Source: a virus
Reading direction: 5' to 3' (one strand)
IMG/VR virus record: IMGVR_UViG_3300032229_001005
Location: 1-20,311 of that record
DNA length: 20,311 bases
Made by a program: the position numbers and the translations under genes. How positions within the stretch are numbered: the stretch's first letter is position 1; each line of letters begins with the position of its first letter. The notes below the pieces were generated by a model. That model was not told the DNA's origin, did not search any database, and saw only the letters and a list, made by a program, of their open reading frames with translations. Positions 13,863-18,163 of this stretch are shown here, piece after piece.

Positions 13863-15713
13863 TTATTGAAAAGTAGCCATTTGATTGGGTCCAAACGAAT
13901 TTTCTCGTCTGTTAAGATTGATAATATAATTCTTGAATGATTGTTCATTGATTGCCATATTAAATGCCTTAATTACTTCCGCCATTTGTTCAGATGTCAA
14001 ATTAGTTGGTAAATTTTGGAACTGAACATCTACTTTTATATCTCCATCAACTTCGATGGGTTTTTGTGGTGAGCCTGGAGCAGACCCTTGGCTAAAGTTT
14101 GGATTCACACCTGTCTGACCGAGCACTGAAATATTTCCATATGATGTGGTATCTGTTGAAGTTGGGATACCAGTTGCTGAAGTGGTTGTACTGACTCCTG
14201 TCGCTGTCGTTCCCCTATTTTTGAATTTACTATACTCCGCTAACAAATCCGCAGAAATTTCTGCAGACATACCTTCAACCTGTTTCAAAAGTTCTGGCCC
14301 CAAATCTGTCAATTTCTCTCCCGATCCGGCCATTAATTCGGTCAATATTTCATTAGGATTAAATGTACCTTTTGAAATAATTCTCGTAATATCTCCTTCT
14401 ATGTCCCCGAATATTTTTTCTGCTTTCTTTCTTATACTATCAGTTGAAAACTTTTCATCTTTGCTCACTCTATCAACATACTTTTGTGAAAGAGTCCTAA
14501 TTGATTCATTTAGATTCTGCATGGTTGGTGCCGTTAAGACTCCACCCACAACTGCAGCTTTAATCGCTGCCACATTGTTGCCCAAAATTTCATCTAATCT
14601 TAACGATGCTTTTGCAGTTTCTTCAAGACCTTTTGGTTGGTTTTTTTGTGCCTCAATTAATCTATTAAAATCCTCTTGTTGTAAATCCGCTAATTGTTTT
14701 GCTTCACCGCTTTCTAAGGTAACAGTATATTTTCCATCTTTTAATTTGAGTATATTTGCTAAATACTGTTTGTCTTCTTCTGTGGCAATTTTAAGACCAG
14801 CGGCGTCAACCGCTGATAATCTTTGGTCAAGTTCAGATGCCGCTAATCCCATTTTGGACAATGATCCTGCGGATAACCCCGCAGCTTTTTCCATTTCTCT
14901 TAATGTTAAAACCCCTTGAGGATTAATTTTAAAAGTTTTGGTCTCAGCGTCGAATTCAGTAAACTGTTTCGCAATGTCCGCTAAACTGTCTTGTAATCCT
15001 GAAGGGTCATTAATTGACATATTCATTAATTGGAATGGGTCAACTAAGTTACCCGCAGCAACTCCCAATCTTTGGAATGCTCCTGCGACTTCTATTGCTC
15101 CCTCGGGGTCTAAAACTTTTTCTGCCAATGCAAAGGTTTCTTTCATTTCGAACCTCAACATTGAGGCCCTTGCAGCCATTTTTGTTAAACCTTGAACCCC
15201 TCCTTCAAACTGATATCGGTTCATTTGTTCCATATTTTTTTGGACATCACCGATAACTGTTTTAGCATTTCCACCAATACTTTGAACATAAGTCATGGAC
15301 TTTTCGAGGGTTTCAGGTATTTTTTCAATACCCAATCCTACATCCAAAAAACTATTTGATAAAGTTTCAGCTCCTAATCCTAAAACTTTATTAATCGCAT
15401 ATAACTGTTCAACTTCTTCAGCAGTAGCAATAACATTTCGTCTAGATGCTATTGCAACTTGACCTATAATTTCAGACACATCTTTAATGTCTCCTCCCAA
15501 CCTTCTTACATTAGGAATAGAATCTGCTATAGCAGTTTGTACCTCATAAACTCTCGCTCTTGTTTGAGTGAATGCTTCTAATACCCTATTACTATACTCA
15601 GATAATGCTTTTTGAGATTCAATAAAGTCTATTTTGAAGTCGTCCCCTTTACCTCCATAAGAAAAACTTTCTCCTGCTGGTGTACCTGTACCTGATCCTG
15701 TCGTTTGAAACAT
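13863..15713 (-). CDS. Tail tape measure protein
   Basis: The 616-residue protein is predicted to be almost entirely helical in residues 25-490. It has long amphipathic runs (KIDFIESQKALSEYSNRVLE; EQLYAINKVLGLGAETLSNS; ALRKEAEKIF-like segments) and no obvious enzymatic motif. A Ser/Thr-rich linker (about residues 500-530) leads to a short folded C-terminus containing IKVDVQFQNLPTNLTSEQM. A hydrophobic stretch around residues 376-398 (VAAIKAAVVGGVLTA) could be a membrane-active segment, as in other tape measures. It sits directly after the chaperone-like frames and before the baseplate genes, the standard position. Length is close to T4 gp29 (590 residues); at about 1.5 angstrom per residue it predicts a tail near 90 nm. 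Start is ATG 15713, without a Shine-Dalgarno sequence. I identify it from context, length and helical pattern more than from a conserved motif. Confidence 0.78.
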   Translation of the reverse strand: MFQTTGSGTGTPAGESFSYGGKGDDFKIDFIESQKALSEYSNRVLEAFTQTRARVYEVQTAIADSIPNVRRLGGDIKDVSEIIGQVAIASRRNVIATAEEVEQLYAINKVLGLGAETLSNSFLDVGLGIEKIPETLEKSMTYVQSIGGNAKTVIGDVQKNMEQMNRYQFEGGVQGLTKMAARASMLRFEMKETFALAEKVLDPEGAIEVAGAFQRLGVAAGNLVDPFQLMNMSINDPSGLQDSLADIAKQFTEFDAETKTFKINPQGVLTLREMEKAAGLSAGSLSKMGLAASELDQRLSAVDAAGLKIATEEDKQYLANILKLKDGKYTVTLESGEAKQLADLQQEDFNRLIEAQKNQPKGLEETAKASLRLDEILGNNVAAIKAAVVGGVLTAPTMQNLNESIRTLSQKYVDRVSKDEKFSTDSIRKKAEKIFGDIEGDITRIISKGTFNPNEILTELMAGSGEKLTDLGPELLKQVEGMSAEISADLLAEYSKFKNRGTTATGVSTTTSATGIPTSTDTTSYGNISVLGQTGVNPNFSQGSAPGSPQKPIEVDGDIKVDVQFQNLPTNLTSEQMAEVIKAFNMAINEQSFKNYIINLNRRENSFGPNQMATFQ

Positions 15714-15739: not shown

Positions 15740-15763
15740 AAAGGACTGAATTTTCAGTCCTTT
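15740..15763 (-). terminator. Intrinsic terminator between chaperone frame and tape measure gene
   Basis: AAAGGACTGA (15763-15754) pairs perfectly over ten bases with TCAGTCCTTT (15749-15740) around the loop AAAT, followed on the minus strand by the T-rich TATATTTAT. The TGA stop of the 59-codon frame lies inside the upstream arm of the stem. The near-symmetric A/T flanks mean it could also work on the other strand. It would limit readthrough into the tape measure gene, a protein needed in few copies. Confidence 0.7.
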
Positions 15764-15933
15764 CTATTTAATTCAACCCATTTATCTAAAAGATACTTTC
15801 TCACAAACAATGGCATTATCAAAAAATCAGAATATGAAATACCCAAAAGTGTTTTGAGATAATAGAATTCGTCTATTTGTCCCTTTCTATAATCAGAAGA
15901 AAGGGCGAAAAAAGTCCACCCCAAACCCAACAT
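15754..15933 (-). CDS. Small overlapping reading frame, likely frameshifted C-terminal part of the tail chaperone
   Basis: In the +1 frame relative to the gp26-like gene there is a 59-codon frame from ATG 15933 to TGA 15754-15756. It overlaps the upstream gene by 41 bases and extends about 137 bases beyond its stop. The peptide looks like real protein: after the overlap it reads SSDYRKGQIDEFYYLKTLLG, then SYSDFLIMPLFVRKYLLDKW, ending ELNRKD. The pattern of a helix, a 'MP..VRKYLLDKW' motif and a charged tail recalls the short second component of phage tail assembly chaperones, which detect the tape measure. It may be translated as a fusion by a +1 slip at TTT TTT C, or independently from ATG 15933; a GGAG sits 15 bases upstream of that ATG, too far to be convincing. 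It ends within a terminator hairpin just ahead of the tape measure gene. I recognise the type of protein by pattern, not by a firm family match. Confidence 0.7.
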   Translation of the reverse strand: MLGLGWTFFALSSDYRKGQIDEFYYLKTLLGISYSDFLIMPLFVRKYLLDKWVELNRKD

Positions 15934-16636
15934 TGACTGTTAGTTTCTCTCCTGATGGGGCTATTACTGTTCTTGTTAAATCTAATTTAGGTTCATTTTC
16001 ATCCATGAACTTTCTAATGTATTTTGAATCTGCGATTGGCATTTGGTCAATAAATTTAGAAATTTCAGACCTATCCTGGACTCCATTAATTTCTATGATT
16101 TGTTTGTTCAATCTCCATGTTACTTTCGGTGCCACTCTACCTTGTGGATAGGATTCAGCCATTTTTTGGACTTCCATAATTTCACCATAAGTCATGGGTT
16201 TTAATTTAACCGTTGCTTGAGATTTTGGTAACGTAGTAACAAATGTTCCATCTTCTAATGGTAATTGACCTTTTATAACATTTAACTCGTCTAATCTAAC
16301 TGTTCCCGTAAATGGTTTTTTTGTAATTGGGTCTGACAAACTTAATTCCATTTCAGGACCGAATGCGGTATTTCTAAGAAAAATTAAAATAGATTCAACA
16401 TCTCCTTCCAACAAATCTTCGATACGTATATCGGGTTCATATATTTTCGATCTCAATAAATTTTGAGTCATGTCATTTCCGCCACCCATCAAAATGTTTT
16501 CATCGTTAGCGGTTAGATATCCAACTTTGATTGATTTTTTCTTATTCTTGTAAAAGACACCTTGTGAAGGTAAAGGCACAACATCGTGTGGTAACGAAAA
16601 GTTTGCTTGACCGTAATCTCTTGATTGATTTTCCAT
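15893..16636 (-). CDS. gp26-like T4_baseplate-family protein, probable tail assembly chaperone
   Basis: The 247-residue protein has the features of the T4 gp26 family (Pfam T4_baseplate). These are an N-terminal VPLPSQGVFYKNKKKSIKVGYL segment, then LTANDENIL, a region of helices with RIEDLLEGDVESILIFLRNTAFGP, and a C-terminal GFGVDFFRPFF. T4 gp26 (208 residues) is listed as a baseplate hub component. Here the gene lies between tail tube and tape measure, the classic site of the tail assembly chaperone (lambda G, P2 E), which binds the tape measure during assembly. Its last 41 bases overlap a 59-residue frame in the +1 frame, and the overlap contains TTT TTT C followed by CGC, a plausible +1 slip site. 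A fusion would run about 293 residues. The start at ATG 16636 directly follows the T-run of a hairpin and lacks a Shine-Dalgarno sequence. The family is well supported; the chaperone role is inferred from position and overlap. Confidence 0.82.
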   Translation of the reverse strand: MENQSRDYGQANFSLPHDVVPLPSQGVFYKNKKKSIKVGYLTANDENILMGGGNDMTQNLLRSKIYEPDIRIEDLLEGDVESILIFLRNTAFGPEMELSLSDPITKKPFTGTVRLDELNVIKGQLPLEDGTFVTTLPKSQATVKLKPMTYGEIMEVQKMAESYPQGRVAPKVTWRLNKQIIEINGVQDRSEISKFIDQMPIADSKYIRKFMDENEPKLDLTRTVIAPSGEKLTVNVGFGVDFFRPFF

Positions 16637-16717: not shown

Positions 16718-17206
16718 TTAGTAGACTAACACACATCTGTCCATTCTCAAACTAGCAGTAATTTCTGCTAATCCGTCTGTGCTATATCCTAATGAACCAA
16801 AGTTAACATCTGTTAAAAATGTTCCATAAAGAATCCACTTTTCCACAACAACTCCGGTTGGGTCTAACATTTCGAGGTCGATGTCTTTCTTATAACCTGC
16901 GGCATATCCCATACGACCTGTTACAGATTCAGCGTGTAAACGAACCCACTCCATAAGAGCCTGTGCCGCTGATGGACCAATTGGGTCTCTAAATTTCACA
17001 CTAATCGGATCCCAATTGAATCGTCCCGCAACGAATGTTGATGTATTTAGGAATTGGATTTCTGTAGATCCTATTTTAATTGATGGTCTTGCTGCAGATT
17101 CAACAAACCACTCATTTATACCAAGTGATGATGGAAACCTTAAGATAAAACGATTCTGTCGTTTTGGTTCGTAAGGAATCGGCATTTTCATTAATAAATC
17201 AGCCAT
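16718..17206 (-). CDS. Tail tube protein, gp19-like
   Basis: This 162-residue protein builds the inner tail tube through which DNA passes. It matches the T4 gp19 family in length (T4: 163 residues) and in sequence layout. It has an N-terminal FILRFPSSLGINEWFVESAARPS segment (leading strand and loop), a central WDPISVKFRDPIGPS segment typical of the family, the helix AAQALMEWVRLHAE, and the C-terminal strands DIDLEMLDPTGVVVEKWILYG and AEITASLRMDRCVLVY. The start is ATG 17206, preceded by an A/T-rich leader (AATTAAAAACAC) with no Shine-Dalgarno sequence. It lies downstream of sheath and HAD genes and upstream of the chaperone-like gene, which fits a tail operon. The 96-base leader is one of the longest gaps in the window and holds a candidate promoter motif, suggesting separate or boosted transcription of this abundant protein. 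Confidence 0.93.
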   Translation of the reverse strand: MADLLMKMPIPYEPKRQNRFILRFPSSLGINEWFVESAARPSIKIGSTEIQFLNTSTFVAGRFNWDPISVKFRDPIGPSAAQALMEWVRLHAESVTGRMGYAAGYKKDIDLEMLDPTGVVVEKWILYGTFLTDVNFGSLGYSTDGLAEITASLRMDRCVLVY

Positions 17207-17302: not shown

Positions 17303-18163
17303 TTAATTTACTTCTTTCTTATAGCCTCCAGCAGTAGAATAAGTTTTAACAATATTATCTGGTTTATTTTTGAAATGCTTTTGCATTACTTCTATATTTT
17401 TTGGGTCATCGTCACTAAATCCTATTGATAATTTTTCCGGATTAAATTTATTAGCAATATCCTTTTTTAAGAAGGCTTTTTTATTAAGTACTGCTGCCAT
17501 TCCTTTAATATAACTAACAAAATCTTCCATCGCTTCGACTTTGGCTTCTTCAGGATTAACAGCCCCTTTGTCGTCTCCAAAAGATACCGGATGATACTTA
17601 TTAAGTTCTAAATAAGATTTGATAAGTTCCTCATCCGTCATTTCATCTTCACCCACAAAAGACCTATATTTTTTTAGATTTTTTATTAACTCATCTTTAT
17701 CTATCCCGTTGAAACCTTCTATAATATAGTTATAAATTGCTTCTTTTATAGTGTTTGGATTATGACCTCTCGCAGTTATTATCGCAAATATTGAACCATT
17801 ATTTATTGCTTCTCTAAAATCATCGAACGCCGGTCCTTTTTTTGCCCTTAAAGAGTCCACCAAAAAATCTTTGTCTCCCTCAGTTCTAAAATTTCTAAAT
17901 GGTGAGTCGGCATACCCTACAATAGTATTACCTTTATATGAGAATGGTTCGTTACCAATCTTGTGTCTGAACTCGGCAAAATCATCAGTAGACATGCCAA
18001 TCTCATTACCATCTTCATCTTTGACCAAAATTTTTGTTGGCATATGAACTATATTATCGTCCCAATCGAACGCATAATACTTTAGGTCCGGTGCCCCTTC
18101 ACTTTTGAATCCTTCTGTAAACTCTTTTCTCATTTGGCTAAAGGGGGGATATTGTCCCCCCAT
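17303..18163 (-). CDS. HAD-superfamily phosphatase-like protein
   Basis: The 286-residue protein has the ordered motifs of haloacid-dehalogenase-type phosphotransferases. Motif I is YAFDWDDNIV, with the expected nucleophile and acid/base aspartates at about D33 and D35. Motif II is IITARGH, with the Thr near residue 130. A Lys-rich stretch (KKAFLKKDIANKF) could supply motif III. Motif IV is IGFSDDDPKNI near residue 248, for Mg2+ binding. The catalytic set looks intact, so it is probably an active phosphatase. Phage HAD proteins include polynucleotide 3'-phosphatases and RNA-repair-associated domains, but nothing here fixes the substrate. It starts 9 bases after the sheath stop codon and is presumably cotranscribed with the sheath gene. 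Its position between sheath and tube genes is unusual, since it has no evident structural role. The start is chosen at ATG 18163 because it is the first in frame after the sheath stop; codons 1-7 lie in a GC-rich hairpin. The cap region (about residues 40-120) is not one I can name. Confidence 0.8.
   Translation of the reverse strand: MGGQYPPFSQMRKEFTEGFKSEGAPDLKYYAFDWDDNIVHMPTKILVKDEDGNEIGMSTDDFAEFRHKIGNEPFSYKGNTIVGYADSPFRNFRTEGDKDFLVDSLRAKKGPAFDDFREAINNGSIFAIITARGHNPNTIKEAIYNYIIEGFNGIDKDELIKNLKKYRSFVGEDEMTDEELIKSYLELNKYHPVSFGDDKGAVNPEEAKVEAMEDFVSYIKGMAAVLNKKAFLKKDIANKFNPEKLSIGFSDDDPKNIEVMQKHFKNKPDNIVKTYSTAGGYKKEVN
18143..18161 (-). promoter_or_regulatory. GC-rich hairpin at the start codon of the HAD gene
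   Basis: On the minus strand GGGGGGA (18161-18155) pairs perfectly with TCCCCCC (18149-18143) around the five-base loop CAATA. The first G of the stem is the G of the ATG start codon. Only a short TTT follows, so it is a poor intrinsic terminator. A 7-bp stem with six G:C pairs is exceptional in this AT-rich window and would be expected to reduce ribosome loading on the HAD gene or to protect the 3' end of the sheath message. The structure is seen in the sequence; the effect is inferred. Confidence 0.6.

Follow-up and report, generated by a model that had tools for sequence, protein, structure and literature searches.

In the window (the whole stretch of virus DNA analysed, a fragment of 20.3 kb), a gp26-like gene on the minus strand overlaps at its 3' end a nominal 59-codon open reading frame in the +1 frame, which raises the question of whether the two are expressed as one protein and, if so, by which kind of recoding event. 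The source seems to be a tailed phage from freshwater belonging to the T4-like group; a search for its host among genome contigs gave no match. Read along the minus strand, the genes run in the order tail sheath, an unassigned gene, tail tube, gp26-like gene and a gene of 616 aa (Table 1). The initial annotation had proposed a programmed frameshift joining the two frames into a chaperone fusion. We consider it very probable that the locus encodes a tail assembly chaperone in two forms (TAC-N and, with the TAC-C extension, TAC-NC) through a +1 slip of the P-site Phe codon at TTT-C, with a hairpin upstream.

Table 1. Positions in the window of the candidate frameshift locus, its elements and its neighbours
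Feature	Position	Strand	Basis or remark
Tail sheath protein		minus	phrog_23
286-aa gene between tail tube and sheath	17303-18163		without family match
Tail tube protein (gp19-like), upstream neighbour of the gp26-like gene	16718..17206	minus	phrog_4542, E=9.4e-24
TAC-N, gp26-like (T4_baseplate PF12322 / phrog_150), zero-frame ORF, 247 aa	15893..16636	minus	
Conserved upstream RNA hairpin	15918..15961	minus	47-sequence alignment, covariation, tree-aware null, stability
Hairpin outer helix	15961-15956 with 15923-15918	minus	
Bulge UCAGGAGA, nearly invariant	15947-15955	minus	GGA 76/76, TCA 69/76
Hairpin inner helix	15946-15938 with 15932-15924	minus	
ATG of the nominal 59-codon ORF	15931..15933	minus	probably not used as start; missing in 27/76 homologues
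GAC before the slip	15916-15914	minus	sequence
Slip site TTT TTT CGC	15905..15913	minus	P-site TTT 76/76 homologues, A site always CGN
First Phe codon TTT	15913-15911	minus	sequence
P-site TTT	15910-15908	minus	sequence
A-site CGC	15907-15905	minus	sequence
TAC-C, +1-frame extension, shifted TTC codon to stop	15754..15909	minus	
Zero-frame stop TGA ending TAC-N	15893..15895	minus	sequence
Putative tape measure protein, 616 aa, downstream neighbour	13863..15713	minus	position and size only

Conservation and selection at the frame junction

The zero frame of the gp26-like gene closes with GTG GAC TTT TTT CGC CCT TTC TTC TGA, and in the +1 frame the junction reads ACT TTT TTC GCC CTT TCT TCT GAT, remaining open for 46 codons beyond the zero-frame TGA to the stop at 15756-15754. 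The GAC TTT TTT CGC ending and the open second frame are as the initial annotation had described them, and the join read as +1 gives a fusion of 293 residues, matching its estimate. Since approximately 1.9% of the 46-codon stretches read out of frame within the window's genes happen to contain no stop, one open frame in a single sequence is weak evidence, and at this chance level (about 2%) it was rejected as proof.

Approximately 500 IMG/VR relatives were collected by a search independent of the junction, and further relatives by a pattern scan permitting every synonymous codon at the slip; the 122 distinct junctions were reduced to 76 diverged homologues (<95% identical). The +1 frame is free of stops over 40 codons in 76/76, while each other frame contains a stop in 76/76, and dN/dS over these homologues is 0.167 in the +1 frame against 1.66 and 0.81 in the other two. 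The +1 frame is under purifying selection. TAC-C aligns with the TAC-C of relatives, P and R being invariant, and the homologues conserve the slip site as well as both frames, as the proposal of a joined product had foreseen; this conservation shows the open second frame to be more than chance. In L182 the TAC-C frame continues in frame into the putative tape measure gene, which it does not in the near relative L115, and this is probably an assembly indel.

The zero-frame Val codon preceding GAC varies among GTG, GTT, GTC and GTA (entropy 1.63 against 1.62 expected, 76 homologues), and the +1 frame over it reads W, L, S or stop and changes freely. From the slip on, the zero-frame codons are frozen (TTT 72/76, TTT 76/76, CGN, CCT 74/76, TTC 76/76 and TTC 74/76); the A-site CGN stays free at its third base. 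Such an end of synonymous freedom at the slip is expected if the +1 frame codes from TTT-C and not earlier. The stop of TAC-N is TGA in 60 homologues, TAA in 14 and TAG in two.

When the A site holds a sense codon, +1 slippage as a rule requires a strong pause. The ten genes of the window contain 247 Arg codons, of which 71% are AGA and a single one, that at the slip site, is CGC; this fits the earlier suggestion that CGC may be slow, although the rarity is no proof by itself because the C is also forced by the +1 frame. A strong A-site pause would be supported only by the rarity of CGC in the fragment, and relatives also use TGG at this position. Published work likewise finds that +1 shifting usually requires a slow A-site codon (PMC10885494). 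No Shine-Dalgarno sequence was found at the tested spacing before the slip, where the A site holds CGN or TGG.

A Mel-JY01-like group, collected without using the junction, carries TTT TTT TGG with a homologous +1 extension, and P-site TTT is present in 58/58 diverged junctions of this type, before TGG or TAC. The junctions fit a rule under which P-site TTT would move +1 to TTC or TTT.

A conserved hairpin upstream of the slip site

A feature that the initial annotation had not mentioned lies in codons -15 to -1 of the homologues, which hold in succession RCCCCN, a bulge of 9 bases (mostly UCAGGAGAA), an inner hairpin and YGGGGU, leaving 4 bases up to the first TTT. Helix cells are paired in 89.7%, as against at most 55% when partners are slid by 1 to 3 columns. 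In a tree-aware null, in which substitutions were redistributed over a phylogeny of the flanking sequences (300 replicates), pairing was 72.9 +/- 3.8% (89.3% observed) and covariation 0.098 +/- 0.019 (0.244 observed, attained in 0/300 replicates), and doubly changed helix cells numbered 80 against 25.4 expected. RNAalifold alone recovered the outer helix only. Codon-column shuffling was dropped as evidence of RNA folding, since unrelated stretches also scored large values of both signs, and the tree-aware test took over. Additionally, the mean folding energy of the 45 bases just upstream of the slip is -10.8, as compared with -4.15 +/- 1.05 for other parts of the gene, and that of the Mel-JY01 clade -8.1 against -4.4 +/- 1.0, folding and pairing figures alike not being independent samples because the sequences are related. 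In 67 cyanophage homologues with a -1 arrangement at T TTT TTC, stable RNA is found downstream (-10.1 against about -4.9), the upstream region being ordinary.

In vitro, with 70S ribosomes, hairpins placed upstream raise +1 shifting and weaken -1 shifting (PMC6321510), and by extension from such artificial constructs the hairpin described here, the 3' arm of which ends a few bases before the Phe codons, would probably refold behind the ribosome and push it forward. It would thereby take the part of the rRNA-mRNA duplex in prfB, which shares the one-base forward move of the P-site tRNA, the slow A site and an upstream duplex near the E site; prfB, however, employs a stop codon in the A site and an rRNA duplex, where the window phage has CGN, a sense codon, and a hairpin within the mRNA itself. 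Shine-Dalgarno-like leaders are absent from all ten genes of the window, so an intramolecular duplex may here replace the rRNA duplex; Flavobacterium has the prfB +1 frameshift and keeps the rRNA-type site (PMC8710568). On balance we lean towards a natural +1 shift driven by hairpin refolding behind the ribosome in phage genes lacking Shine-Dalgarno leaders, with homologous genes combining +1 with structure upstream and -1 with structure downstream. If the hairpin acts in this way, it would provide an example from nature of the effect known from artificial upstream hairpins.

It is less likely, though still a reading to be reckoned with, that the hairpin has a different role, for instance in the stability of the mRNA or in controlling translation locally, and that the +1 slip works without it. 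Relatives under the same slip rule show weaker and different upstream folds, the structure in the Mel-JY01-type clade being less uniform as well, and the near invariance of the bulge UCAGGAGA would also speak for such a role. Against this stand the position of the hairpin only a few bases before the slip, the unusual stability of the upstream RNA in the second +1 clade too, and the opposite placement of structure in the homologous -1 cyanophage genes.

In most members the bulge UCAGGAGAA is complementary to UUCUUCUGA near the zero-frame stop; no compensation for this pairing was seen where that stop is TAA. The near-invariant bulge UCAGGAGA of the window, too, is complementary to UUCUUCUGA, which lies around this stop.

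Start codons and the direction of the slip

The second frame might also be a separate small gene, overlapping the gp26-like gene and translated by coupling from the ATG at 15933. This ATG occurs in the window and in 49/76 homologues, AGGAG lies 15 bases before it, and such an arrangement is found in L220 and L226, which have lost the slip site (TTC TTG TAT or TTC CTT TGG) and encode TAC-C from its own ATG in another frame; at the level of sequence, these two are a natural control for the slip rule. However, the ATG is missing from 27/76 homologues, in keeping with the expectation of the initial annotation that no start would be shared at 15933, and in 8/76 the stretch from the last +1 stop to the slip contains no ATG, GTG or TTG at all. 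A +1 stop directly precedes the slip in L094, L115, L137, L197 and L200, and potential starts are next met 9 to 31 codons into TAC-C, at varying positions. Given these missing starts, the 59-codon ORF is very probably not separately started. Furthermore, the +1 residues vary before the slip and are frozen after it, the ATG overlaps the 3' arm of the hairpin, and the window's genes lack Shine-Dalgarno-like leaders, so that a separate gene is very improbable.

A Mu-like -2 ribosomal slip on the T-run would join the same frames with one extra residue, and the T6 or T7 of most members would let the P-site tRNA re-pair two bases back. The run is broken, however, in GAT TTC TTT CGC (L081, L140 and L160) and GAT TTC TTT CGT (L165), in GGC or GGT TTC TTT TGG (L211-L223; the GGC form in the LR756508-like group) and in LR756508, the junction of which is AAC TTT CTA. 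The four GAT sequences, the GGC form and LR756508 re-pair poorly after a -2 move, while all of the T-run-breaking variants retain TTT followed by C or T. The Mu-type shift, although it reaches the same frame, is excluded here by these variants, and we give it scarcely any credence; of the alternatives "+1 (or -2)" offered in the initial annotation, the first is upheld and the second falls. Slippage of RNA polymerase on the T6 or T7 of most members, yielding mixed mRNAs, is the least credible reading, as the same layout occurs with just T3 or T4 in several members, six bases are short for slipping and the hairpin would be left unexplained.

With the +1 slip of the P-site tRNA retained as the preferred reading, LIS04 (L204:3700-3740) is a poor fit to the rule, as its GAG TTT TTT AGT would need TTT to move to TTA; it may use -2, or may slip at the earlier of the two TTT codons.

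The chaperone reading and its relatives

Under the +1 reading, most ribosomes would stop at 15893 and release TAC-N (247 aa), whereas some would pause while tRNA-Phe holds the P-site TTT and the A site presents CGC, a rare Arg codon. The tRNA-Phe would then slip forward by a single base from TTT onto TTC, with which it pairs perfectly, and the shifted ribosome would go on in the +1 frame to produce TAC-NC (293 aa) with a three-helix TAC-C domain. By analogy with lambda G/GT, TAC-N would coat the tape measure protein and TAC-C would recruit tail tube subunits.

TAC-N matches Pfam PF12322 (T4_baseplate) at 28.2 bits (cut-off 24.5) and phrog_150 with E=1.1e-11, the latter family being matched by 48/49 aligned homologues. 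Structures were predicted for the two halves separately. The AlphaFold model of TAC-N (mean pLDDT 87) gave Foldseek matches to T4-like baseplate hub and hub assembly proteins and, weakly, to the HK97 tail assembly chaperone 2ob9 (PDB rank 4, probability 0.51, TM 0.47 by target, E=1.0), and TAC-C was modelled as three helices (pLDDT 85), with no solid family or fold match for TAC-C alone. Pfam DUF6760 was matched weakly by 5/22 TAC-C sequences (alignment A5; best E 0.005).

The locus has a conserved C-terminal extension that lies out of frame and lacks a start of its own, and the slippery site, at the 3' end of the first frame, is conserved as well. As to the proposed place of the chaperone gene before the tape measure gene, the tail tube is clear upstream (phrog_4542), and the downstream gene of 616 aa, for which Pfam and phrog profiles gave no match of weight, is a putative tape measure gene by its size and place only. 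Gene order, two-form output and the 2022 work on T4-like TACs together make a TAC-N/TAC-NC pair of the lambda G/GT kind the best match, by analogy, for the gp26-like gene and its +1 extension.

The lambda gpG/gpGT pair (Xu, Hendrix, Duda 2004; PMC5009743) occupies the same gene place, from tube to putative tape measure, and likewise consists of a short form and an out-of-frame long form made by programmed frameshift; here, by contrast, the shift is +1 and not -1, the N domain is of the gp26 family and a hairpin lies upstream. According to the citing papers PMC10885494 and PMC12846349, gp26 and gp51 were proposed as T4-like TACs by Vladimirov, Gautam and Davidson in 2022, -1 poly-T signals occur in TAC-N genes of T4-like phages, and in some such phages the short and the long form are said to be encoded by separate genes; the window phage shares the N-domain family of gp26/gp51 but, on our reading, shifts +1. 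Tailed phages already use -1, -2 or +1 for TAC frameshifts, so the kind is known, and the haloarchaeal myovirus HSTV-2, an archaeal virus, very likely has a +1 shift in the same tail chaperone position (PMC5009743). The departure from the usual -1 announced in the initial annotation therefore holds as regards direction, but it has precedent. As far as the literature consulted shows, the new elements are the +1 rule in the T4-like group and the conserved, covarying upstream hairpin.

With these results, the range of frameshifted tail chaperones comes to include a large group of T4-like phages from the environment, and a clear +1 slip rule is added, TTT then C or T, mostly followed by a zero-frame CGN or TGG codon. 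Among isolates, the small second ORF is out of frame with the gp26-like gene by +1 in SP-15 and Mel-JY01 and by -1 in S-SM2, XacN1 and RAS14, and S-SM2-type gp26-like genes (L311-L390, cyanophage-like) have a -1 extension in 77/77, at T TTT TTC. Versions with +1, -1 and unfused layouts within one gene family make up a natural set for what sets frameshift direction. No gene is annotated over the TAC-C stretch of LIS04 (L204). In other isolates short TAC-C genes pass as separate hypothetical genes: those of SP-15 (L207:3755-3874) and Mel-JY01 (L203:3746-3982) are annotated as independent hypothetical proteins, as is the -1 extension of S-SM2 (L206:3640-3869).
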